A stretch of DNA of 58,269 nt from Eubacterium sp. (GTDB lineage Bacteria > Bacillota > Clostridia > Peptostreptococcales > Anaerovoracaceae), in assembly GCA_017511535.1 (NCBI GenBank), contig JAFWJS010000034.1, positions 1 through 58,269 of the forward strand, in the 5' to 3' direction. Each line of letters opens with the position of its first letter. The stretch's first letter is position 1. This document shows, piece after piece, positions 43,337-57,915 of this stretch. The notes under the pieces were generated by a model. It did no database searches and was not told where the DNA came from. It worked only from the letters and a program-made list of their open reading frames with translations. The translations under genes and the position numbers were made by a program.

Positions 43337-43365
43337 TTGACATTGTATGGGGAAGCTGATAGTGT
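43337..43365 (+). promoter_or_regulatory. Promoter of the Tad pilus locus
   Basis: A perfect TTGACA (43337-43342), a 17-base spacer and TAGTGT (43360-43365). It gives a leader of about 30 bases before the first gene. The -10 is weak, so an activator may be needed. Confidence 0.6.
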
Positions 43366-43403
43366 GTGGTTCACAAGGAAAACTGATACAGGAGGTTTCA
43401 GCT

Positions 43404-44459
43404 ATGGAAACGGTAAAGATAGGCATTCAGGTCAGAGACAGGGACTACAGAAACGCGCTTCTCAGGGGGTTGTCACATGAGAGCAGAGATTTTCAGTTCA
43501 TCGCGCTGGCTGCGGAAGGAACAGGGCCTTCGGGAAAAGATGAAAAGGATATCCAGATACTGCTCACTGATATCGATACCGGCAGAGATAATGAGGCCGT
43601 CAGGAATCATCCTGTCATCATACATCTTACATATCGTGAATCATATGATCTGAGCTACAGCGCAGGGAATATGGAGATATTCAGATATGAAGACGCGGGA
43701 GTATTCATAGGAAAGATCATATATTACTACGCCAGGACCATGGGTATAGATCTGTACTTTCATGGAAGAAGGAAGTGTCACAGCGTAGTGTTCTTCTCAG
43801 CCAGAGGCGGGTGCGGCACGACCTCAGCCGCAATGACAGCAGCAAGATTTCTGAAATACAGGTTTGACAAGCAGACTCTGTTCCTGAGCCTGTGTCCTCT
43901 CGACGGCTCAAGAAAGTATACAGGTGAAGGTGACGGCGGCAATATGACGTCTCTTCTGTATCATCTCAATGCCGGTGATGACGTCCCTCTGTGTAAATTC
44001 ATTTCATCTCAGGAAGGAGTCAGCCACATACGTGGAATGAGTAATAACAGAGCGGCAAGTGAGATGACGCCGGGAGAGCTGAAACAACTTTTTAAGATGA
44101 TAGACAGGATGGGTGATTTTTCATATCTTGTCATAGACGTCGGGAACCACCTTACATCTCTCGCGAAATATGCCATAGAGAGCGCTGATGTTGCTGTCTG
44201 TGTAAGGCAGAAAGGCGATAAGGCTGATGAAACGGGAGAATACAGCTTTGATAAGGAAACTCCGCATGGACGTCTGATATATGTTACTGAACTTGACAGT
44301 GGATGTGACAGACCGGAAGAAGATCCTTCTGCAGTGTCTCTTACATATGACCCTTCGGCGTTCGTGAACCAGAGCGGCAGGACTTTGATAGACATAAGAG
44401 GACGATATGGAAGAGATGTGAGCATGCTCACGGAGAAGATAGTGGGGTGCGCGGAATAG
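43404..44459 (+). CDS. tadZ: TadZ/CpaE-like pilus localisation protein with atypical Walker A
   Basis: A 351-residue protein of the MinD/ParA-like group, known as TadZ or CpaE, that places the pilus machine at the cell pole. It has an N-terminal receiver-like domain (residues 1-110) and a ParA-like domain. The P-loop, FFSARGGCGTTSAAMTAARFL around residue 134, lacks both Lys residues of the usual KGGxGKT (Arg134 and Thr139 instead), so ATP binding is probably altered, as reported for other TadZ proteins. YLVIDVG near 245 is the Walker B. The start is the ATG after AGGAGGTTTCAGCT. It starts a nine-gene locus. tadA follows immediately after its stop. Confidence 0.82.
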   Translation: METVKIGIQVRDRDYRNALLRGLSHESRDFQFIALAAEGTGPSGKDEKDIQILLTDIDTGRDNEAVRNHPVIIHLTYRESYDLSYSAGNMEIFRYEDAGVFIGKIIYYYARTMGIDLYFHGRRKCHSVVFFSARGGCGTTSAAMTAARFLKYRFDKQTLFLSLCPLDGSRKYTGEGDGGNMTSLLYHLNAGDDVPLCKFISSQEGVSHIRGMSNNRAASEMTPGELKQLFKMIDRMGDFSYLVIDVGNHLTSLAKYAIESADVAVCVRQKGDKADETGEYSFDKETPHGRLIYVTELDSGCDRPEEDPSAVSLTYDPSAFVNQSGRTLIDIRGRYGRDVSMLTEKIVGCAE

Positions 44460-45677
44460 ATGAAAGACAGTATGAAAATAATATACAGAAGAGATCTGGC
44501 AGAGATAAGGAAGATATTCTCGGGACTGTCAGCGTTTGAGAGAGAGACTTTCACGGAAGATTCGTACAGAGAAATAATAGAGAATATGATCATGAAAGAA
44601 GACGCTCTTTCTGCGGCTGAGATGAAAGAGATAGTGGACCTCATTTATGCGAGAACAAGGAGCAGACTCGGGGTACTAATGTATCTGGTCAATGATAGCA
44701 GTGTGAATGAGATAATGGTCAACGGTACAGACAATGTGTTTATAGAGACCGGCGGCGGAATTTCTCGTGTAAAGAGTGACTTTGATTCCACAGATGAACT
44801 GGAGGAGATCATCAGAAATATCGCCGCGTCATGCAGGCGTGAGATCAATGAGATGAATCCGATCCTTGACGCGAGGCTAGAAAACGGATCGAGGGTCAAC
44901 GCGGTATACAGGAATGTGGCATACGGCGGTCCTGTCCTGACTATCAGAAAGTTTTCTGATGAAAGAATAACGATAGAAAGGATGGTACAGGAAGGGACGC
45001 TGACTGAGGAATGCAGGGACATGCTTAAGGCCCTTGTTGAGTCGGGATACAACATACTGATAAGCGGAGGGACTTCTTCCGGGAAGACTACGTTTTTGAA
45101 CGCACTTACTGACTTCATACCGTCAGATGAAAGGGTGATCGTTATAGAGGATTCGCGTGAGCTGATGCTCGGGAACATAGACGATCTCGTTCAGATGGAG
45201 TGCCATACGGCTAATTCACAGGGGAACGGCGAAGTAACGATGGATATGCTTATCAGAACAAGTCTGAGGATGCGTCCTGACAGGATAATAGTCGGAGAAG
45301 TCAGAGGCCGCGAGGTCGCAATGATGCTTCAGGCGATGAATACAGGACATGACGGGAGTATTACGACAGGACATGGTAATTCAGCGGCAGGCATGCTCAG
45401 AAGACTTGAAGCCATGTATCTGATGTCTGAGGAAATACCTCTTGAGGCAGTAAGAGCTCAGATACTGGAGGGAATAGATATTTGCATACATCTTTCGAGG
45501 ATGCGCGGCGGGGAGCGAAAAGTGACAGAAGTAAGTGAACTGACGGGATACAAAGACGGAGAATATGTGCTCAACAAGCTGTTCAGGCTGGATAAAAATA
45601 TGAGGCTTATCAGAGAAAACAACAGTCTTATGAACAGAGAGAAGCTTGAACGAAGAGGATCTCAAAGGGAGCTGTGA
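44460..45677 (+). CDS. tadA: TadA/CpaF-type secretion ATPase
   Basis: A 405-residue hexameric ATPase of the type II/IV secretion family that powers pilus extension and possibly retraction. Walker A GGTSSGKT lies at residues 203-210, the Asp box RVIVIEDSREL near 228, the His box GHDGSITTGHGNSA near 300 and the Walker B-like MRPDRIIVGEVRG near 276. The N-terminal half includes VNEIMVNGTDNVFIETGGGI, typical of CpaF. It starts directly after the TadZ stop, and its stop overlaps tadB. Confidence 0.94.
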   Translation: MKDSMKIIYRRDLAEIRKIFSGLSAFERETFTEDSYREIIENMIMKEDALSAAEMKEIVDLIYARTRSRLGVLMYLVNDSSVNEIMVNGTDNVFIETGGGISRVKSDFDSTDELEEIIRNIAASCRREINEMNPILDARLENGSRVNAVYRNVAYGGPVLTIRKFSDERITIERMVQEGTLTEECRDMLKALVESGYNILISGGTSSGKTTFLNALTDFIPSDERVIVIEDSRELMLGNIDDLVQMECHTANSQGNGEVTMDMLIRTSLRMRPDRIIVGEVRGREVAMMLQAMNTGHDGSITTGHGNSAAGMLRRLEAMYLMSEEIPLEAVRAQILEGIDICIHLSRMRGGERKVTEVSELTGYKDGEYVLNKLFRLDKNMRLIRENNSLMNREKLERRGSQREL

Positions 45678-46414
45678 TGGATTACAGGAAATACGATGCA
45701 GGCAAGGCTGAGAGAATAATGCTTATGATCATTCTGACTGCATTTCTTGCTGCCGTGGGTATTCTCTTTTATAACACTGTCCTGACATGCGCTTTATCCG
45801 TTATTCTGTACATCCCGGCATGCAGGATATACAGCCGTGTCATGGCTGACAGAAGAAGAAAGGAGCTCAGGGATCAGTTCAGAGACCTTCTGGATTCGCT
45901 AGCCGCCTCATTTGCAGGGGGAAGGCATATGCAGGAAGCACTGTCTGAGGCTGAGAAAGAGCTTTCGGCTATATATGAGGATGATGAAGTAATAATGACC
46001 GAGATACGGGGCATGCTGAAGCGTATGGGCGAAGGTGAAAATGATGAGCATGTTATGGATGATCTGGCCGCGAGGTCAGGGATAGAGGATATCGAGGTAT
46101 TTTCAGATGTATTCAGCGCATGCAGAGAGACAGGAGGCGACATGATAACTGCCATGACAGATGCTTCATCTATGCTTGGCGACAAAATAAAAATAGAAAA
46201 CGAGATACGTGCGATTACAGCTCAGAAGAAAACAGAAGGAGTGATGATAAGTATAATGCCGGCAGCGATAATACTTTTCCTGAGGCTGATCGCGCCGGAT
46301 TACATAGAAGTGCTGTATGGTGATCTGACCGGCGCAGTTCTGATGACGGCTGCGCTCGCAGCTACCATATACTCATATCATCTGATCAGGAAGATAACGG
46401 AGATAGAAGTATGA
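45677..46414 (+). CDS. tadB: TadB-like inner-membrane pilus assembly protein
   Basis: A 245-residue protein with two N-terminal spans (about residues 12-55), a cytosolic type II secretion F domain in the middle and two C-terminal spans (about 188-237). FRDLLDSLAASFAGGRHMQEALSEAEKEL and CRETGGDMITAMTDAS fit the T2SSF family. It should form the membrane platform with the next protein. The ATG is used rather than the GTG one codon before it; it overlaps the tadA TGA and follows AAAGGGAG. Confidence 0.87.
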   Translation: MDYRKYDAGKAERIMLMIILTAFLAAVGILFYNTVLTCALSVILYIPACRIYSRVMADRRRKELRDQFRDLLDSLAASFAGGRHMQEALSEAEKELSAIYEDDEVIMTEIRGMLKRMGEGENDEHVMDDLAARSGIEDIEVFSDVFSACRETGGDMITAMTDASSMLGDKIKIENEIRAITAQKKTEGVMISIMPAAIILFLRLIAPDYIEVLYGDLTGAVLMTAALAATIYSYHLIRKITEIEV

Positions 46415-47415
46415 ACAGAGTAATAAAAGAGCTCAGAGCATTTCTGCTTTTCATCCGAGATGAGCAGAACAGAAAAACGATAATCATGATAATCATTTCT
46501 GTTATTTTGCTTACATCTGTCAGCATGCTTAAAAGTCTTATGTCAGGAGCAAAGTATATAAGCGCAGGAAACGGAACAGTGCAGGGCGTCATAAGAGACG
46601 ATACAGATGAGACTGTTTCTTTTCCGCTGAAGGTCGAGGCGGACATAGACGGCAAAAAGAAAACGAAAGATGTAACTCTCACGATCAGAGGTGACAATAA
46701 GGAGACCGGTGAGAAAACTGATCACAAAGATGAGAGGACTCTTTTTGAGACAGAAATATCTGAGATGATCTCAAGACTTTCAGAAGAATGCAGTAAAAGG
46801 ATAATGTTTCCTTCTTCACTTTCAGACGGGACAGAGCTCATCTGGAGAAAGGGCAGCAGCAGTACCGAGCTGATACTGGTATTCATAGCGCCTTTTCTGA
46901 TATGGCTGCTTTATATCAATGGTGAGCGGAAGAAGCGTGAGCTGATCAGAAATAAGATCAGCAGCGTTGAAAGAGATCTTCCGGCATTCAATGATCAGCT
47001 GCTCCTTATGATGGGGTCAGGACTGATATTCCGTGAGGCATTCATGCGAATAGCTGAAGGATACAGGAAACGCAGTAAAAGAAGCTGTTTTGAGGATGCA
47101 ATAGTTGAGATAGAAGATGAGACAAGAAACGGTGTGGCCGATATAGTCAGCGTAATGACTAGGAAAGCTGAGTCAATGGGAGTAAGCCAGTTTTCCAGAC
47201 TTGCCGGCATAATACGGGATAATCAGCTGAAAGGATATGATATAAGCGGAAAGCTGAAGAGTGAAGCGGAGATATTATGGGATCTCCGGAAAAGAAACGC
47301 TGAAGAGCGCGGCAGGCTTGCTGAGACCAGGCTCACTATGCCGCTTGCGCTGCTTCTGCTGGTGCTTGTGCTGGTCACAGCGGCACCGGCGATCATACAA
47401 GTGGAGGGAGGATGA
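46411..47415 (+). CDS. tadC: TadC-like inner-membrane pilus assembly protein with N-terminal extracytoplasmic domain
   Basis: A 334-residue platform protein. The first span is at about residues 22-40. Then about 105 residues lie outside (GTVQGVIRDDTDETVSF and a basic-acidic stretch), a second span is near 150-168, the cytosolic F domain follows (ERDLPAFNDQLLLMMGSGL onward) and a last span is at 312-328. The F domain identifies it as TadC-like. The external insert is unlike bacterial TadC outside Clostridia. The ATG overlaps the previous stop. Confidence 0.85.
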   Translation: MNRVIKELRAFLLFIRDEQNRKTIIMIIISVILLTSVSMLKSLMSGAKYISAGNGTVQGVIRDDTDETVSFPLKVEADIDGKKKTKDVTLTIRGDNKETGEKTDHKDERTLFETEISEMISRLSEECSKRIMFPSSLSDGTELIWRKGSSSTELILVFIAPFLIWLLYINGERKKRELIRNKISSVERDLPAFNDQLLLMMGSGLIFREAFMRIAEGYRKRSKRSCFEDAIVEIEDETRNGVADIVSVMTRKAESMGVSQFSRLAGIIRDNQLKGYDISGKLKSEAEILWDLRKRNAEERGRLAETRLTMPLALLLLVLVLVTAAPAIIQVEGG

Positions 47416-47603
47416 GTATTATGAAGAAAAACAGAACAAAGAAAAAGGCAAGACAAGGTGTCGCTGAGATCTTAGGTAACAGACATGGGATGGAGATGGT
47501 ACAAGTGGCTATACTGATAGCTCTCGCGGTGGCGCTGGGTATCATATTCCGAACTGAGATAACAAGGTTCGTCAATAACGTATTCAGCTCGTTGAACAGC
47601 TGA
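47412..47603 (+). CDS. Flp1-like type IVb pilin
   Basis: A 63-residue major pilin candidate. A basic leader (MSIMKKNRTKKKARQGVAEI) ends at a Gly, then comes MEMVQVAILIALAVALGIIF and a short polar end. The size, single hydrophobic helix and RFVNNVFSSLNS end fit the Flp1 family of clostridial Tad loci. The predicted processing site is HG^MEMVQ, with Gln at mature position 5 where Glu is usual. The ATG at 47412 directly adjoins GGAGGGAGG; the ATG at 47421 has better spacing and would shorten the leader by 3 residues. Confidence 0.82.
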   Translation: MSIMKKNRTKKKARQGVAEILGNRHGMEMVQVAILIALAVALGIIFRTEITRFVNNVFSSLNS

Positions 47604-47618
47604 CCGGGTGTATCAGAT

Positions 47619-47930
47619 ATGTGCAGCAGAAAAGGTGAGGAAATGGTGGAAGCCGCGATCGTATTACCGCTCGTGATCCTTACGATATTAAGCGTGATCA
47701 TGATAACAGTTTTCCTGTTCATGTATGAGATCAGACAGTCAGAAGCACATATTGAAGTGATGCGTGAAGCTGCTTCTTCTGAAATTGTATTCGGGATAAA
47801 GAGAAAAAGCGTATCAGAGTCGTCATATATAAGAGGAACAGCTGCACGTACTGTACGTAAGGGAGCCACAGTCAGAGCGTATGCCTTGAATCAGGCAGAG
47901 GCGCTAATGATCGGGGAACTTGCCGGCTGA
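47619..47930 (+). CDS. TadE-like minor pseudopilin
   Basis: A 103-residue protein with a prepilin-type start, CSRKG^EEMVEAAIVLPLVI, with Glu at mature position 5, a single hydrophobic helix to about residue 35 and a basic soluble part. The pattern is that of the TadE family of minor pilins. GAGGTG-like sites are absent and the ribosome binding site is weak (ATATG), so coupling with the preceding gene, 15 bases upstream, may matter. Confidence 0.82.
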   Translation: MCSRKGEEMVEAAIVLPLVILTILSVIMITVFLFMYEIRQSEAHIEVMREAASSEIVFGIKRKSVSESSYIRGTAARTVRKGATVRAYALNQAEALMIGELAG

Positions 47931-47969
47931 TAAGAAGCATGTCCGTCTGCTGTCGTGAAGGGGATATCT

Positions 47970-49217
47970 ATGATCAGAGACAAAAGAGGTTCAGTTACAA
48001 TATTCATAATGATGTTCATGGTGAGCCTGATAATGATGTCCATGGCATTTATACGGGAAGCCATGAATGCGGCAGTCAGGGGATCATTCAGCGCTCTGGG
48101 CAACATGTGGTGTGATTCGGTGCTTGCTGAATACGATCTTAATCTTCAGGACAGATATGATATCTTTGCATTCTATGGGCTTCAGCAGGAGATAAACAGT
48201 AAGCTCAGGTTTTACGCAGGCAGATCGGTGATGGATAAGAGATATGTAAGCATGTCACGAATAGATTCTTCTCTTACAGGATATTCTCTGATGGATACAG
48301 ATAATTTCAGGAAGCAGATAGTAAGAGCGGCAGGCTTCAGGGAAGCAGGGAGAATAGCCGGTAAGTCTAATGAATATGAAGAGCATGGAGCGCCGCAGCC
48401 CAGAACGGAAGGAGGAAGCGCACTAATGACAGATCTTCCATCCGGAGGAACAGAGAGATCTGTTTCAGCATCTTCGCTAAAGCATGCAGTGGAGAGTACC
48501 GGATCTTTAAAGAATATCGTTTCTGAAGGGAGCGGCAGATTTCTGGAAGATCAATATGCTTTTATGTATTTCAAGGACCGATCTGACGACAGGGGACTGG
48601 GGAAGACTTATTTTGACAGTGAGATAGAATATCTGATAACCGGTAAAAAGAGTGAAGAAGATATCAGTGAGAGCATCAGGCGGCGGATCGTAGCCGTCAG
48701 ACTTGTGTTCAACACTATCTATGCGTTTGAGGATCCCGAGCTGGGTGCCGAAGCTCTTGCGGCAGCAGAGGTGATATCGCCCGGGCCGGGCGCTGAGGCA
48801 GTAAGGGCTTTGCTGCTGACAGGATGGGCCGCGTGTGAGAGCGTCAACGATTATAATCTTCTGATCAGCGGCAGTAAAGTACCGCTGTATAAAAACAGGG
48901 GATCATGGGCGCTGAGGCTGGATAATGTAATAAAGGGAGGAATAAAAGAGCATGAGGACGGGACTGCCCCTGAAGTGAAAGACGAAGTACCTTGTGTTGA
49001 TCCACATAACGAGAATGGAGATGTATATAAGGATTATCTGAAAGCGATGCTGTTCCTTATTGACGAAAATGTAATGCTTCTCAGGATGATGGATCTGATA
49101 CAGATCAATATGAGATACTGTCATTATTCTGATTTCAGAGTAAGAGAATACAGTACCGGACTCAAGGCAGTGTTTGAAGTGAATGGAGGCAGGTGTTCTG
49201 TTGAAAGGTCTTATTAG
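47970..49217 (+). CDS. DUF5702-like secreted/membrane protein of the Tad locus
   Basis: A 415-residue protein. A short basic start, MIRDKRGSVTIFIMMFMV, runs into a hydrophobic helix of about 25 residues, followed by a long extracytoplasmic part of 380 residues. Its N-terminus (GSVTIF) and size fit the DUF5702 proteins found in clostridial Tad loci, where they take the place of TadG. The central region (residues 125-180) is Ser/Gly-rich. The start is the ATG after AAGGGG; a GTG 15 bases upstream is less likely. The end overlaps the next gene. Confidence 0.72.
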   Translation: MIRDKRGSVTIFIMMFMVSLIMMSMAFIREAMNAAVRGSFSALGNMWCDSVLAEYDLNLQDRYDIFAFYGLQQEINSKLRFYAGRSVMDKRYVSMSRIDSSLTGYSLMDTDNFRKQIVRAAGFREAGRIAGKSNEYEEHGAPQPRTEGGSALMTDLPSGGTERSVSASSLKHAVESTGSLKNIVSEGSGRFLEDQYAFMYFKDRSDDRGLGKTYFDSEIEYLITGKKSEEDISESIRRRIVAVRLVFNTIYAFEDPELGAEALAAAEVISPGPGAEAVRALLLTGWAACESVNDYNLLISGSKVPLYKNRGSWALRLDNVIKGGIKEHEDGTAPEVKDEVPCVDPHNENGDVYKDYLKAMLFLIDENVMLLRMMDLIQINMRYCHYSDFRVREYSTGLKAVFEVNGGRCSVERSY

Positions 49218-49959
49218 CGTACTGGTCCCGTTCGGAAAGAAGGGAATGTACATAGTGGAGGCATCGATCATATTTCCTTTGTTTATCGTATCGATGGTCA
49301 TCATCACAGGCATCATCCCTGTGGTATCCGTATGTGAGAACGTGGTGTGCTCAGCATCAGATGAGCTGAGGTTTGAAGCGGCAAAAGCACCTTTCAGAGG
49401 CAGCGGAGCTGACTATATTGTAAGAGCTTCGGGCCGTATACTTTCTGAAAACCGCAGATTATCAATGTTTATATTGAATTCGTACAGGCATGGAATATCA
49501 GAGAACGGTATCGATGATCTTATGCATGTAAGATTCAGTGCAGGGTTCAGGAATAGTATATCGCTTATTGCGGTTAACAGTATAGTGTTTAAGGGTGACC
49601 TTATGGCAAGGGCATTTACAGGAACATATCATAAGGTTGGAGATGGGTATGATGATACTGTAGTGTATATCTTTCCACAGGACGGCAGGAAATATCATTC
49701 AAAAGGATGCAGGTATCTTACGGCTCACTGTCATATGACTGTTCTCAGCGATGCGCTTATGACAAGATTTCATGCATGTCCTCTATGCAGAGCCGGTCAT
49801 GCGCATATTGGAGAGACAGTCATATGTTTTGAAAGGGCAGGTGAAGCATATCATATGCCGGACTGCAGACAGGTGGAAAAAGAAAAGTATTATACAGAGA
49901 CCATCAGGTCGAGCGCAGAAAGAGCAGGATATACGCCGTGCTCGGTCTGCGGCGGATGA
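49201..49959 (+). CDS. TadE-like pseudopilin with two C-terminal HxxxC...CxxC modules
   Basis: A 252-residue protein. A prepilin-like segment GKKG^MYIVEASIIFPLFIV, with Glu at mature position 5, and one membrane helix are followed by a 110-residue external domain. Two copies of a motif follow. Copy 1 is KYHSKGC ending in CPLC; copy 2 is AYHMPDC ending in CSVC. Each has one His and three Cys, a likely metal site as in the Ada-like/nuclease-associated YHxxxC...CxxC modules. The start is chosen as the TTG after AGGTG; an ATG 18 bases upstream (49183) has no site but is possible. In that longer numbering the ligands are His172, Cys176, Cys199, Cys202 and His224, Cys228, Cys253, Cys256. Confidence 0.75.
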   Translation: MKGLISVLVPFGKKGMYIVEASIIFPLFIVSMVIITGIIPVVSVCENVVCSASDELRFEAAKAPFRGSGADYIVRASGRILSENRRLSMFILNSYRHGISENGIDDLMHVRFSAGFRNSISLIAVNSIVFKGDLMARAFTGTYHKVGDGYDDTVVYIFPQDGRKYHSKGCRYLTAHCHMTVLSDALMTRFHACPLCRAGHAHIGETVICFERAGEAYHMPDCRQVEKEKYYTETIRSSAERAGYTPCSVCGG

Positions 49960-49984
49960 GCAGGGGGCACCGGGAGGATGTAAA

Positions 49985-50512
49985 ATGGATGATGACAAGA
50001 TAGAGGTAGTATACAGGAATAATGAGCTTGAACGATTCAGGCAGGACATACTGGCAGGAAACCTGTGCGATATTTTCCTTCCCGTTTCATTTATACGTGC
50101 AGACGGGTATGTAGGTGCAGTATACGATATGCAGGGATATGAAAGATATTCAGATATCAGGGAGGTGAGGGCAAGCACACTGATAGGAGCTGTGACTTCG
50201 ATCATGGAGAAAAGCCGGCAGGGCGACAGGCGTTATATCTTCTCAGGTGAATACAGTCTGGATCCGGCTCTTGTATTCATTAATACAAGGATCCCTGACG
50301 CCGCGCTTATATACAGAAGAACAGAGCCGATGTCCAGGAGAGAGATACTTGACTGCCTGAAGCACCTTCTGCAGCCTGACGATGCGGATGTGCGCGGAGC
50401 TGATTATATACGTAAGGCGTTGTTCCTTCTGTCAGACAGCCATAAGAGTTTCGGAATAATCAGACACGATCTGATGGCGGTGGGTACCGAAGCGTTCAGG
50501 GCTGAGTGCTGA
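49985..50512 (+). CDS. DUF6382-like protein without FHA domain
   Basis: A 175-residue soluble protein, the last of the Tad locus. The order of elements LERFRQDILAGNLCDIFLPV, YVGAVYDMQGYERYSDI, YIFSGEYSLDPALVFINTRI and a basic helix near 135 resembles the N-terminal domain of DUF6382 proteins, which in clostridial Tad loci normally carry an FHA domain behind it. None is seen here. The family call is from memory of the pattern and is moderate. The start is the ATG after GGGAGGATGTAAA; a longer frame into the preceding gene is an artefact. Confidence 0.6.
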   Translation: MDDDKIEVVYRNNELERFRQDILAGNLCDIFLPVSFIRADGYVGAVYDMQGYERYSDIREVRASTLIGAVTSIMEKSRQGDRRYIFSGEYSLDPALVFINTRIPDAALIYRRTEPMSRREILDCLKHLLQPDDADVRGADYIRKALFLLSDSHKSFGIIRHDLMAVGTEAFRAEC

Positions 50513-52827: not shown

Positions 52828-54930
52828 TTATTCAGCAGGCGTTTCTTCAGGAGCGGCTTCTTCAGCAGGGACTTCCTCTTCAGGAGCAGCTTCTTCAGCA
52901 GGAGCTTCCTCAACAGGAGCTTCCTCAACAGGAGCTTCTTCAGCAGGAGCTTCTTCAGCAGGAGCTTCCTCAACAGGTGCAGCTTCTTCTTCCGGAGCTT
53001 CTTCAGCATCTTCAGCACCAGCGACATCTTTAAGTGAAAGGCTGATTCTCTTTCTCTCTGAATCGATGTCAAGGATCTTAGCTGTGACTTCCTGTCCGAC
53101 TGTCAGCTCTTCGCTGATATTGTTTACTCTCTTATTGGCAACTTCAGAGATATGAACGAGTCCGTCAAGTCCAGGCTCGAGCTCTATGAAAGCACCATAT
53201 TCCTTAAGCTGAACGACTTTACCCTTAACGATATCGTCGACATGGAACTTTTCGTCAATGATAGACCATGGCTCCGGTGTTGTCTGCTTAAGACCAAGAG
53301 AGATCTTTCCTTTTTCTTTATTCATGGAGAGGATCTTTACGTTGACTTTCTGTCCGATTTTGAGGACTTCGCTAGGATGTCTGAGCTTGCCCCATGAGAT
53401 CTCAGAAATGTGCAGAAGTCCGTCGATCCCGCCGAGGTCGATGAATGCGCCGTATTCTGTGAAACGCATTACTGTACCTTCAACGATATCTCCCTCATTC
53501 AGTGTCTCCCAGATCTCATCGACTTTCTGCTGTCTTTCTTCAGAAAGAACAGCTCTGTGTGAGAATACAGCTCTGTTGCCTCTTCTCTCATCGACTCTGG
53601 TGACTTTAACTGAAAGTACCTGTCCCAGGAATTCGTCAGCGCTTTCAACGAATCTGTTGGAAAGCTGTGACAGAGGAATGAATCCAGATGCTTCTTTGTA
53701 GAATGCAACAACTCCGCCTTTGACGACTCTGGAGACCTTGACATCAATAGTTGACTTATTTTCAAGAGCCTCTTTGATTTCGTTCCAGTGCTCGCTGATT
53801 TCCAGTTTCTTCTTTGACAGCAGGAGTCCGCCGTCATTGTCGTCAGTCTTGATGACTTTGGCTTCGATCTCGTCGCCTACCTTGAACAGATCTGTAAGTT
53901 TCTGTCCTTCTTCAAGAGATACCTCGTTAGGGTAGAGAATACCGTCTTTCTTGCAGCCGAGATTTACAATAACCTGATTGTCATCGACCTGATCGATCTT
54001 ACCCTTTACGATGTCGCCGCTTCTCGGTAATCTCAGAGATGCTTCAACATCTTCCATAACGTCTTCCATACTTGTAACTTCTTTTGTGTCACTCATTGCA
54101 GTAACTACCTCCTTAATTTCACGTTCGGGCGTCGATGCGCCCGCCGCAACCCCTATTTTACAATATTTACAGACTTCTTGCAATGGTAATTCTTTAAAAT
54201 CCTCAATAAAATAGGTGGCAGGGCAGACATTGCGGCAGATCTCGGCGAGTTTTCTTGAATTGGATGAAGTATAGCCGCCAACAACTACCATACAGTCTGA
54301 CTCTGACGCAAGTTCAGCAGCAGCTTTCTGCCGCTCGGTAGTGGCGCTGCATATGGTGTTGTTGATCTCGAGAGATATCCCTTTTTCAGACAGCACATTG
54401 ATTATACTGTCCAGAGTTTCTTTTTTACTTGTTGTCTGGCAGACGATAAAAGCTGAGTCACCGCCGAAATGTTCTGCATCTTCTGCATTCTCACAGATGA
54501 ATGCATTTCCGCCGCACCATCCGTTGATGCCTTTGACTTCAGGATGAGTCCTGTCGCCTGCGATGATTATATTTTTACCGGCTCTGGATGCGTCGCTTAC
54601 AAGCTTGTGTATCTTTGCGACAAAAGGGCATGTCGCGTCGACGATCTTAAGCCCGCGCGCTTCTGCAGCTTCATAAAAAGCTTCTGGTTCTCCATGTGAT
54701 CTTACGATCACAGTAGAGCCTTCAGGGATCTCGTCAAGGTCATCAGTTATGATCAGGCCTTTTGCGGTAAGGTCATCGTTTACAGACTGGTTGTGGATGA
54801 GCGGGCCAAAAGAATACACGCCGGATCGTCCCGGATGAGCGGCATGCTCAGATATTACGTTCTCTGCAGTTTCTATCGCCTGTTTTACACCGAAGCAGAA
54901 TCCGGAATGTTCAGCGATCTTAATGATCAT
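52828..54930 (-). CDS. ispH: IspH-S1 fusion: HMBPP reductase joined to ribosomal protein S1-like domains
   Basis: A 700-residue fusion. Residues of about 1-280 are IspH (LytB), the iron-sulfur enzyme that turns HMBPP into IPP and DMAPP in the MEP pathway; Cys12 (HSGFCFGV), the Cys of DATCPFV and the Cys of NTICSAT hold the cluster. Four S1 RNA-binding domains follow from about residue 300 (GDIVKGKIDQVDDNQVIVNL, STIDVKVSRVVKGGVVAFYK, GDIVEGTVMRFTEYGAFIDL, DDIVKGKVVQLKEYGAFIEL). An acidic Ala/Pro/Glu tail of about 60 residues ends it. The fusion is known in Clostridia. AAAAGGAG precedes the ATG. An internal start for the S1 part is likely. Confidence 0.95.
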   Translation of the reverse strand: MIIKIAEHSGFCFGVKQAIETAENVISEHAAHPGRSGVYSFGPLIHNQSVNDDLTAKGLIITDDLDEIPEGSTVIVRSHGEPEAFYEAAEARGLKIVDATCPFVAKIHKLVSDASRAGKNIIIAGDRTHPEVKGINGWCGGNAFICENAEDAEHFGGDSAFIVCQTTSKKETLDSIINVLSEKGISLEINNTICSATTERQKAAAELASESDCMVVVGGYTSSNSRKLAEICRNVCPATYFIEDFKELPLQEVCKYCKIGVAAGASTPEREIKEVVTAMSDTKEVTSMEDVMEDVEASLRLPRSGDIVKGKIDQVDDNQVIVNLGCKKDGILYPNEVSLEEGQKLTDLFKVGDEIEAKVIKTDDNDGGLLLSKKKLEISEHWNEIKEALENKSTIDVKVSRVVKGGVVAFYKEASGFIPLSQLSNRFVESADEFLGQVLSVKVTRVDERRGNRAVFSHRAVLSEERQQKVDEIWETLNEGDIVEGTVMRFTEYGAFIDLGGIDGLLHISEISWGKLRHPSEVLKIGQKVNVKILSMNKEKGKISLGLKQTTPEPWSIIDEKFHVDDIVKGKVVQLKEYGAFIELEPGLDGLVHISEVANKRVNNISEELTVGQEVTAKILDIDSERKRISLSLKDVAGAEDAEEAPEEEAAPVEEAPAEEAPAEEAPVEEAPVEEAPAEEAAPEEEVPAEEAAPEETPAE
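52831..53010 (-). repeat. Tandem repeat encoding an acidic PAEEA/PVEEA tail
   Basis: The 3' end of the ispH-S1 gene repeats a unit of about 15 bases (GCTTCTTCAGCAGGA and close variants on the plus strand). It encodes repeated A-P-A/V-E-E. The copies are near identical at the DNA level, so the number of units may vary between strains. Confidence 0.75.
54094..54114 (-). promoter_or_regulatory. Internal ribosome binding site and start for a free S1 protein
   Basis: On the minus strand AAGGAGG (54108-54114) is followed after 11 bases by ATG (54094-54096), in frame with the fusion at residue 279, the junction of the IspH and S1 parts. It could yield a separate 422-residue S1 protein from the same mRNA. 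Confidence 0.55.
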
Positions 54931-54960: not shown

Positions 54961-56445
54961 TTATCCTGTTACTCTGTTGGTATCCCAGAATGACCGGGAG
55001 AAAAGAACGAATACGCCGAAGAGCTCCAGCCTTCCGGCGATCATGACAAGAGTCGCGAAGAATCTCAGCGGATATGAGAACACGCTGAAGTCTCCGTAAC
55101 GCATCAGACCGATCCCTGTGCCGTTGTTGGTGATACAGGCGATAGATGCTGAGAATGATGTTTCTATCCCGAGATCCTGCAGAGAGAACACAAGCGCCGA
55201 AACTATAAGTACCGCAAAGTAAAGCAGGGCAAGCACCGTGATGGAAGAGGCGCGGTCTGCCGGAATAGCTCTTCCATTCACAACAACGGCTCTCATCGAT
55301 TTCGGATGGATCCTCTTGTAGAATCCTCTTGTGACTATCTTAAGCAGTATTGCCGCCCGGTGTATCCTGAGTCCGCTTGATGTCGAAAAGCCGCAGCCTC
55401 CGATCACCGGCAGGAACAAAAGTATGGCTTGAGCGAATGTCGGCCAGCTGTTTATGTCCGAGAAAGTAAACCCAGATGTCGAGGCGAAAGAAACCGTCTG
55501 AACGAAGGCGTTTCCGACACATGATACAGGAAGATATCTGTCAGACAGTATAAGAGATGCTGCTATTGAGACAGTAACGATAGCAATGACTGACAGATAC
55601 ACCTTTATTTCATAGTTGTTGAAAGCAAGCTTCCATCTTCTGTTGTAATAGAGATAGTATACGACGAAGTTAAGTGACGCCAGTATCGTGAATATGGTCA
55701 TGATGAATTTCATAGTCGCAGTGAGGTCGAACCCCGCAGAAGCAGAAAGATCTATCAGGCCTGAAGTACTCATCGTGGAGAGCGAGTTGACGAGCGCATA
55801 GTAGGGCGTCATTCCCGCAGCCATGAGCAGTACGAATTCAAAAAGGGCAAGCACCACATATATCGTAATAAGTATGCGTGCGGTCTGGGAGACCTTGGTG
55901 CCAAGACTTTCGAATTTCGCGCCCGGAAGATCCTGAGCAACACTTTTCTGGCTTCCGATACCCAGCTTCTGGAATACAGATACTGTGAGGAATATCATCA
56001 CGAATCCGCCCATGTAGTTCAGCTCGGATTTCCATAGTATCAGTGAGAACGGAAGGGCTCTCTTGTTGAGGACATAGGCTCCTGTTGTGGTCCATCCTGC
56101 TGCTGATTCAAACCAGGAATCGACGAAATTATATCCGTTTCCCGCAAGCATAAATGGTAGGGCGCCGATCAGTATCGCAAGGAGCATGCTCACTATCACA
56201 TAAAGGAATCCATCCCTCGCCTTCAGCTTTGTGTCTATACTCGTAACGAAGTGCCTTATCAGCAGACCGGCTGCTACCAGAGCAGTGCCGATCAAGGTGA
56301 ACCACAGGGCACATTTCATCTCGTTATATAAAGCGGCGCATCCTAAAGGAAGTACCATCGTAGCGCCTTCGATAATGAAAATCAGCGCTGTGAGCCTGGC
56401 AAACTGGTGTTTGTTTATTAAGTTAAGATTAGAAGAAAATCTCAT
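54961..56445 (-). CDS. TrkH/KtrB-family potassium transporter subunit (copy 2)
   Basis: A 494-residue membrane protein with about ten to twelve spans and four pore-like half loops. SAAGWTTTGAYVLN, TMSTSGL, SFASTSGFTF and NNGTGIGL fit the four selectivity filters, each with a Gly. It takes up potassium with the TrkA regulator encoded upstream. The Gly-Lys-rich loop RGFYKRIHPKSMRAVVVNGR is typical of TrkH. It starts 3 bases after its paralogue with ACAAGGCG as site. The ispH gene follows 30 bases later. Confidence 0.92.
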   Translation of the reverse strand: MRFSSNLNLINKHQFARLTALIFIIEGATMVLPLGCAALYNEMKCALWFTLIGTALVAAGLLIRHFVTSIDTKLKARDGFLYVIVSMLLAILIGALPFMLAGNGYNFVDSWFESAAGWTTTGAYVLNKRALPFSLILWKSELNYMGGFVMIFLTVSVFQKLGIGSQKSVAQDLPGAKFESLGTKVSQTARILITIYVVLALFEFVLLMAAGMTPYYALVNSLSTMSTSGLIDLSASAGFDLTATMKFIMTIFTILASLNFVVYYLYYNRRWKLAFNNYEIKVYLSVIAIVTVSIAASLILSDRYLPVSCVGNAFVQTVSFASTSGFTFSDINSWPTFAQAILLFLPVIGGCGFSTSSGLRIHRAAILLKIVTRGFYKRIHPKSMRAVVVNGRAIPADRASSITVLALLYFAVLIVSALVFSLQDLGIETSFSASIACITNNGTGIGLMRYGDFSVFSYPLRFFATLVMIAGRLELFGVFVLFSRSFWDTNRVTG

Positions 56446-56448
56446 TGT

Positions 56449-57915
56449 TTACGCCTTGTCCGGATTCCAGTAGTGAGGTGAGAACAGCATGAAGAACGTG
56501 AAGAGTTCCAGTCTGCCGGCGATCATCAGGAGCGCCAGGATCACCTTGGAGAAATCCGAGAAAATAGAGAAATTGCCGGCAGGCCCGATAAGCTCGAACC
56601 CAGGTCCTACGTTTCCGATACATGTAAGGACTGCCGAAACAGTCGTGACTATATCAAACCCATTGATCGAGATAAGAAGCGTACTTACCACGACAACGAG
56701 TATGTAGAAGAATATGAAATTTGCGATGTTCGTCATGACTTCCTGAGGTACGGATTTTCCGTTCAGCTTGATAGAGTAGACTCTGTTCGGATGTATCTTC
56801 AGCATTATGCCTCTTCTTATCAGTTTAAGGCCGATAAGAACACGGAGCACTTTGACTCCGCCTCCGGTAGATGAAGTTGAAGCACCGACGAAAAACAGGA
56901 AGAACAGAAGCATCTGTGCGAACGTAGGCCATAGTGTGAAGTCATCCGTACCGTATCCGGTAGTCGTTATGAAGCCTACTACGTTGAATGCGGCGGACGT
57001 GATACCCTTGAATACATCTGTAAAAGTTCCCGACGTTATCAGTGTTATGGAGATAAGTACAGTAGGAACCAGGATGAAGCCGAGATAATACTTCAATTCA
57101 TCATCTTTAAGCATGGCCCTCAGGCCTTGTCTGAACATAACGAAATACAGGTTGAAGTTGACTCCGCACATCATCATAAAGATGATGATGACCCACCGTA
57201 TATACGGACTTGTAAAATGTCCGACATTTTCAGCATAGTTTGAGAATCCTCCGGTGCCGACTGTTCCGAACGAGTGAACCAGGCTGTCATAGATCCCCAT
57301 GCCGCCAAGAATAAGAAGTATTATCTCGGCGATCGTTATGCCGACATAAAGCATATACAGGTTTCTCGCTGTGTCGGAGTACTTAGGAGTCAGCTTGTCC
57401 ATTGTAGGACCCGGGGTCTCAGCGCTTGCGATAAGCTGTCCTTCTATACCGATGCTCGGAAGCACTGCTGTAACAAATACGATGATACCCATACCGCCCA
57501 GCCAGTGGGAGAACGATCTCCAGAACAGCATTGACTTTGGGAGGGATTCTATATCGGTAAGGATCGAGGATCCGGTAGTGGAAAATCCTGAACACATTTC
57601 AAAGAAAGCGTCGACATAACTGGGTACAGCCCCGGATATAGTAAGCGGAAGTGCGCCTCCCAGAGAGAAGAGAAGCCACGCAAGAGTTACAATAAGAAAG
57701 CCGTATCTCATCTTGATACGGACTTCAAGGTCCTCTGTGAGCTTGGTCATGGTACCGCCGATCATTACCAGAGGTATGATCACGGCTGCAAAACTCCCAA
57801 TGGATGATATTTCGTTGTACCAGACTGCCACAAGGAACGAAGGTATCATGCTTACTCCAAGAAGGAGCAGGAGCAGACCTGAAAGCCTGGCGGCAGTCCT
57901 CTTCTTTTCTTCCAT
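56449..57915 (-). CDS. TrkH/KtrB-family potassium transporter subunit (copy 1)
   Basis: A 488-residue paralogue of the next gene. Pore loops are MCSGFSTTGSSIL, FGTVGTGGFSNY, FITTTGYGTDD and CIGNVGPGFELIG. GVKVLRVLIGLKLIRRGIMLKIHPNRVYSIKLNGK is the typical TrkH loop between spans. It lies directly behind trkA, so the operon is trkA-trkH-trkH. Its ribosome binding site region is made of two copies of a 12-base repeat. Confidence 0.93.
   Translation of the reverse strand: MEEKKRTAARLSGLLLLLLGVSMIPSFLVAVWYNEISSIGSFAAVIIPLVMIGGTMTKLTEDLEVRIKMRYGFLIVTLAWLLFSLGGALPLTISGAVPSYVDAFFEMCSGFSTTGSSILTDIESLPKSMLFWRSFSHWLGGMGIIVFVTAVLPSIGIEGQLIASAETPGPTMDKLTPKYSDTARNLYMLYVGITIAEIILLILGGMGIYDSLVHSFGTVGTGGFSNYAENVGHFTSPYIRWVIIIFMMMCGVNFNLYFVMFRQGLRAMLKDDELKYYLGFILVPTVLISITLITSGTFTDVFKGITSAAFNVVGFITTTGYGTDDFTLWPTFAQMLLFFLFFVGASTSSTGGGVKVLRVLIGLKLIRRGIMLKIHPNRVYSIKLNGKSVPQEVMTNIANFIFFYILVVVVSTLLISINGFDIVTTVSAVLTCIGNVGPGFELIGPAGNFSIFSDFSKVILALLMIAGRLELFTFFMLFSPHYWNPDKA

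Follow-up and report, generated by a model that had tools for sequence, protein, structure and literature searches.

A TadE-type minor pilin with two Ada-like His/Cys modules in the Anaerovoracaceae: a candidate DNA-contacting component of a monoderm Tad pilus

The minor pilins TadE, TadF and TadG have been proposed as exchangeable tips of Tad pili, and the available part of the same source describes Kil tips of Myxococcus xanthus with C-terminal domains of other kinds (PMC12075869). Here we describe a gene at positions 49201-49959 of a 58,269-nucleotide contig (contig C27; "the window" below is this whole stretch of DNA) from a Eubacterium sp. of the Anaerovoracaceae, the assembly of which amounts to 1.38 Mb and is 88% complete. 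Like TadE, TadF and TadG, its predicted product has a prepilin G/x4/E motif and a long N-terminal helix, and its gene lies towards the end of the tad operon, next to a large partner. In contrast to the Kil tips, it carries a tandem pair of modules with one His and three Cys each (HCCC). Minor pilins of Tad pili and the zinc domain of Ada are each already known; the listings searched, all of open-licence PMC papers, showed no account of the two combined.

Little is established about DNA uptake by monoderms that lack a ComG pilus, and few type IV filaments have a known DNA receptor. A similar monoderm Tad system is the Flp/Tad pilus of Micrococcus luteus, a bacterium that lacks the comGA-F cluster and requires its Tad genes for natural transformation (PMC4322843, PMC6370729). 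However, M. luteus belongs to a different phylum, and the available parts of those papers mention no zinc module in its TadE and TadF. For the Com pilus of Streptococcus sanguinis, DNA capture has been assigned to the tip minor pilins ComGD-ComGF; this is a ComG-type filament that uses electropositive residues displayed at an interface between pilins, again with no zinc module mentioned in the part of the report available (PMC12153270).

The zinc ligands of the N-terminal domain of Ada (N-Ada) are described as Cys38, Cys42, Cys69 and Cys72; the four-Cys zinc cluster is negatively charged, and the domain becomes a potent DNA binder after methylation of Cys38 (PMC10814553). The Escherichia coli domain (PF02805; PDB 1adn, 1zgw, 1u8b, 1wpk) and the pilin modules are alike in the order ligand-x3-C-x(about 22-28)-C-x2-C, with Tyr or Phe ahead of the first ligand and G[FY]xxCxxC at the end. 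They differ in that the first ligand is Cys38 in N-Ada and His in the pilin modules, which are moreover C-terminal and placed on exported proteins. Methylation of Cys38 acts through a lowering of the negative charge on the zinc cluster. With His as first ligand, we infer that the pilin zinc site would permanently have the reduced negative charge that N-Ada has once methylated, which could give a DNA binder without repair chemistry.

We tentatively favour, with a little less than even confidence, a reading in which the product of this gene is a minor pilin, belonging to a monoderm Tad (Flp) pilus, whose Ada-N-like zinc modules contact DNA, likely at the tip, for uptake by ComEA and ComEC. The protein would be cleaved at the prepilin site, its N-terminal helix would pack like those of other TadE-type pilins, and at the pilus tip it would join the operon's DUF5702 protein and short TadE-like protein in a minor-pilin complex. 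The HCCC modules would face outward and hold the phosphate backbone of extracellular DNA, and DNA captured by the pilus would feed the ComEA/ComEC route.

The gene encodes 252 amino acids, from a TTG start at 49201 to a stop codon at 49957-49959; translation could alternatively begin at the in-frame ATG at 49183. A preliminary description, made from the sequence alone, had proposed a prepilin-like start with Glu at mature position 5 and a single membrane helix, and both are found. Gly15, after KK, is followed by MYIVE, which makes Glu mature residue 5, and there is one hydrophobic stretch only (19-residue windows above 1.6 start only at residues 15-34). The predicted model has a long N-terminal helix at residues 13-62. 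The G/x4/E motif is present in 30/30 sequences of our homologue set, i.e. the window pilin (L001) and 29 homologues, for which start codons were assigned by rule and may be wrong. Together with the one hydrophobic N-terminal helix, and with a location in a tad operon (genes 43347-50512, in an order shared in a comparison of 79 loci), this fits a TadE-type minor pilin. Pfam TadE (PF07811) matches 18 of the 30 sequences at E <=1 (best 1.1e-4); the window pilin has no match at that threshold, and a PF07811 search of its genome gave none at E <=0.001.

The two modules read YHSKGC-x22-CPLC (residues 165-196) and YHMPDC-x24-CSVC (217-250). These are the two C-terminal copies of YHxxxC-(x22-24)-CxxC, each with one His and three Cys, that the preliminary description had reported, correctly in both coordinates and frame, and no other match to the pattern was found in six frames of the window. 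When the composition of the pilin was shuffled 200,000 times, 84 shuffles had at least one module and none had two; given also the invariance across homologues, we reject a chance motif. All 30 sequences keep the prepilin motif and the two YHxxxC motifs. Invariant throughout are the H, C, C and C of module 1 and the H and C of module 2. Only L016, which ends at a contig edge, lacks the last CxxC, and for this reason one alignment (A2) has 29 of the 30 rows. Both His and all uncut Cys are therefore kept in relatives, the opposite of the loss that had been named beforehand as grounds for giving up a metal module. The spacing H-x3-C-x22-C-x2-C is found in 27/29 first modules and in 27/29 second modules.

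The preliminary description had suggested a profile search for further TadE proteins with the module; the two-module pilin is present in 31 of the 37 genomes of the family. Across 61 genomes the pilin is matched in 37 (E <=0.01, its own included) and the domain profile in 39; named relatives with the pilin include Aminicella, Hornefia, Mogibacterium, Gallibacter, Anaerovorax and Eubacterium brachy, along with many rumen metagenome-assembled genomes. Loss in close relatives is rejected, since 31 of the 37 keep the pair and, of the other six, contig ends truncate the Tad loci of two (G011, G019), one has no TadA match (G030) and three have one module (G034, and G031, the gene of which contains a stretch of unknown residues) or a fragment only (G036). 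The fragment, at L156:1435-1575 (G036:C54), lies in a short frame and resembles the final part of module 2; as G036 has no TadA match, this locus may be in decay or poorly assembled. Outside the family the full pair occurs in G044 and G055, from another family of the same order. In a 148-genome sample of the class, strong two-module matches were found in four genomes, all of this family. By eye, five weaker matches in that sample are a one-module TadE-like pilin (L197), a ComEC-type protein (L194), a thermonuclease-like protein (L195) and small module-bearing proteins without a recognised enzyme part (L193, L196).

Of 79 named loci (L031-L109), 67 passed a strict two-module pattern; these loci repeat some species and overlap in part with the genomes of L001-L030, and cannot count as a second, independent set. 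Six have one module only (L087, L094, L099, L103, L104, L105) and L102 is cut by a contig end. By eye, L101 and L106-L109 have two modules with longer spacings, L101 and L109 also failing the prepilin pattern. These wider-spaced TadE-like proteins are titled Lachnospiraceae, Lachnoclostridium or Bacillota, which suggests that the two-module trait extends beyond the family. In G043, from another family of the order, the gene 3' of DUF5702 (L183) encodes a TadE-type protein without CxxC, and the modules thus look like an add-on to this pilin position. In a tree of 78 modules the copies of module 1 (n=29) form one clade with support 0.99, and those of module 2 (n=29) another with 0.87. The duplication therefore looks old, and a recent or one-off fusion is rejected.

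The preliminary description had also likened the module to Ada and to the ends of secreted nucleases, and profile comparisons bear out the likeness to nucleases and, in part, that to Ada. The hhalign probabilities among module 1, module 2 and the modules of other carriers are 98.8%, 98.7% and 95.7%, the other carriers scoring 95.7 against module 1 and 98.7 against module 2; the pattern shared by all is [YF]H-x3-C-x(21-28)-C-x2-C. Pfam Ada_Zn_binding (PF02805) matches 10 of the 30 pilins at E <=1 (best 5.1e-7), the window pilin giving no match, and the G044 pilin with neighbouring stretches reaches 34.4 bits against a cut-off of 23. In one fold comparison (VIA), the N-Ada/DNA complex (1u8b) ranks first, weakly. 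Two Ada proteins of relatives read C-x3-C-x26-C-x2-C with Y or F ahead of the first Cys, a spacing that agrees with Cys38, Cys42, Cys69 and Cys72 of Ada, and the Ada proteins of G011 and G038 keep Cys at the first ligand position. Instead of this Cys, both modules of 30/30 sequences have His, as do 21 other carriers aligned. With His at the position of the methyl-accepting Cys38 the module is not a repair domain, and we reject the Ada methylphosphotriester repair domain as a candidate.

The 21 non-pilin carriers were found in related genomes. They are not the full total, since L148, L170, L173 and L177 had no usable open reading frame and stay unclassified; L139, L140 and L141 were left out as Ada proper, L141 on its PF02805 score alone. 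Thirteen of the 21 match Endonuclea_NS_2, thirteen match Ada_Zn_binding (E <=0.01) and seven match ComEC_Rec2, where the Endonuclea_NS_2 and ComEC_Rec2 sets are assumed not to overlap; the remaining one (L171) is, by eye, probably a nuclease end cut by the contig. The window's own genome holds one module-bearing nuclease (L151, contig C14). With 13 nucleases and seven ComEC-type proteins, the module is mostly found on exported proteins of kinds that cut or import DNA, which suggests that the Ada-type zinc module may have a second use on exported proteins. The module of these secreted non-specific endonucleases and ComEC-type metallo-beta-lactamase proteins of Clostridia is homologous, with invariant H, C, C and C. 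That said, they carry a single module on an enzyme, mostly with C-x28-C (14/21, in a spacing comparison in which the L171 row was misread), whereas the pilins have a tandem pair. The interpretation offered in the preliminary description stands in part: the modules are conserved and homologous to nuclease modules, and a DNA-binding tip would be a probable reading of them at best.

A ComEC model matches 58 of the 61 genomes (35 over its cut-off) and a ComEA model 60 (54 over its cut-off). According to genome lists compiled by hand from the result tables, 16 of the 37 family genomes combine the two-module pilin, TadA, ComEA and a ComEC match with no PilB- or PilT-type motor. The ComEC match is over the cut-off in 13 of these and below it in G005, G006 and G026; G015, also among the 16, has a further weak ATPase match (3.3e-17). 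Within the family, PilB-type motors are limited to G004, G009, G013, G019 and G035. By hand count, PilB-type ATPases (ComGA model, E <1e-60) occur in 4/33 genomes with the two-module pilin versus 19/28 without, a contrast that tracks family lines and is not independent evidence. The gene setting of the 16 genomes is like that of M. luteus, which has ComEA as well as ComEC. A broader claim, and one we think unlikely, is that Tad is the DNA-uptake pilus of the Anaerovoracaceae and some neighbours, replacing ComG/PilB-type filaments, with a receptor pilin whose two Ada-derived modules are fixed by His in the DNA-binding charge state, one that Ada attains only through methylation. A pilin with a DNA-associated module at a fixed operon position in named Hornefia, Aminicella and Mogibacterium makes the uptake question directly testable, and prepilin plus HCCC module is a marker for candidate DNA-capturing Tad pili.

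The window's own 88%-complete assembly fits DNA uptake less well: the ComEC model finds no match in it, and PilC-like and pilin-like genes there accompany one for a PilT-type ATPase. A tip position is opposed by the available part of the M. luteus work, in which sheared pili yielded no detectable TadE-type protein and an accessory basal structure was preferred by the authors. As for charge, the modules average +4.2 against -2.9 for the pilin body (30 sequences), but module charge is 0 or negative in 6/30 and +2 in the window pilin. This inconsistent sign, together with a lack of any conserved basic patch among the invariant columns, also speaks for a serious rival that we nevertheless hold to be somewhat doubtful: that the modules are structural knobs, zinc-stabilised caps that would permit disulfide-free folding of an exported domain and contact with partner pilins (DUF5702, Flp) and would bind no outside ligand. 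The nuclease ends would then carry the same robust domain for stability only. Conservation within the modules is highest at positions that include the putative ligands and lower elsewhere, and the C-terminal placement of the module in all 21 other carriers fits as well. A neutral cap, however, would not predict an enrichment of 13 nucleases and 7 ComEC-type proteins among 21 carriers, and the tandem pair is old and has been retained.

The PilT-type cluster deserves a separate remark. At about 3551-7383 of L186 (G000:C30:8000-22000) there are a PilC-like gene, several small pilin-like genes and a PilT-type ATPase, with no PilB match. By eye, sets like it occur in G028 and G023 (L187, L188); a type IV filament cluster with PilT only would be odd. 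Because of this cluster, we reject Tad as the sole filament of the window's genome.

The modules could alternatively bind another anionic polymer, e.g. teichoic acid, polyphosphate or mucin, so that the pilin would act as a surface or cell-wall adhesin in attachment or anchoring. The tad locus was, in the available part of one source, first identified through adherence and biofilm formation (PMC6370729), and L193 is by eye a small lipoprotein-like carrier without a recognised enzyme part. The majority of the classified other carriers, in contrast, are DNA-acting or ComEC-type proteins, and we regard an adhesin as improbable. A metal or redox sensor, in which metal loading or oxidation of the His/Cys sites would alter pilus behaviour, can draw on eight conserved potential ligands per protein but is very improbable, given that the operon has no recognised metal or redox gene, that the modules on nucleases point to a shared role, and that the host bacteria are anaerobes.

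The coordinates of the operon and of the parts of the pilin are collected in Table 1.

Table 1. Features of the Tad operon and of its two-module pilin, in window coordinates
Feature	Position	Strand	Basis and remarks
TadZ/CpaE-like P-loop protein	43347-44459	+	No Pfam match; weak NCBIfam matches to BcsQ/Ssd-type ATPases
TadA ATPase	44460-45677	+	Pfam T2SSE 5.2e-48; TIGR03819 1.6e-84, below its cut-off
TadB	45674-46414	+	Pfam T2SSF 2e-7
TadC	46411-47415	+	Pfam T2SSF 4.9e-7
Flp-type major pilin	47412-47603	+	Pfam Flp1_like 1.9e-9
Short TadE-like pilin	47619-47930	+	Pfam TadE E 0.038, below cut-off; N-terminal G-EEMVE by eye
DUF5702 protein	47955-49217	+	Pfam DUF5702 1.1e-47; 3' end overlaps the pilin gene 49201-49959
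Possible ribosome-binding site GGAGG	49185-49189	+	Sequence reading; 11 nt 5' of the TTG start
Two-module Tad minor pilin (Ada-N-like modules), 252 aa	49201-49959	+	Sequence, homologues, loci, AlphaFold model
Prepilin leader, residues 1-15, ends K-K-G	49201-49245	+	Sequence; G/x4/E in 30/30 sequences
Pilin body (residues 16-142), with a long N-terminal helix followed by another helix and three strands	49246-49626	+	AlphaFold model
Module 1, residues 154-196; H166, C170, C193, C196	49660-49788	+	Pattern, alignment, profile comparison, model
Module 2, residues 206-252; H218, C222, C247, C250	49816-49956	+	Pattern, alignment, profile comparison, model
DUF6382-like protein, last operon gene	49982-50512	+	Pfam DUF6382 E 0.0059, below cut-off (scanned from 49985)

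All genes of the operon are on one strand and the two-module gene is its last pilin gene. When the nine operon proteins were searched in the 79 named loci, the pilin was found in 78 and the DUF5702 protein in 76; the 76 loci that have both share a single gene order, with the genes on one strand. The DUF5702 protein is possibly a TadG-like partner. A homologue of the TadZ/CpaE-like protein is first in the operon in 14/79 loci, many loci being too short to reach that gene, and the DUF6382-like protein has a homologue in only 20/79. An FHA part is a feature of the DUF6382 family; the protein of the window is without one. A prepilin peptidase candidate (a peptidase A24 gene) lies outside the operon, on contig C39 of the window's genome.

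Two further regions of the window, both on the minus strand and read by eye, can be recorded. At 52828-54930 an IspH-like N-terminus is joined to ribosomal-protein-S1-like repeats with a long Glu/Ala/Pro-rich tail, and at 54961-57915 two adjoining large membrane proteins have the look of tandem TrkH-type potassium transporters.
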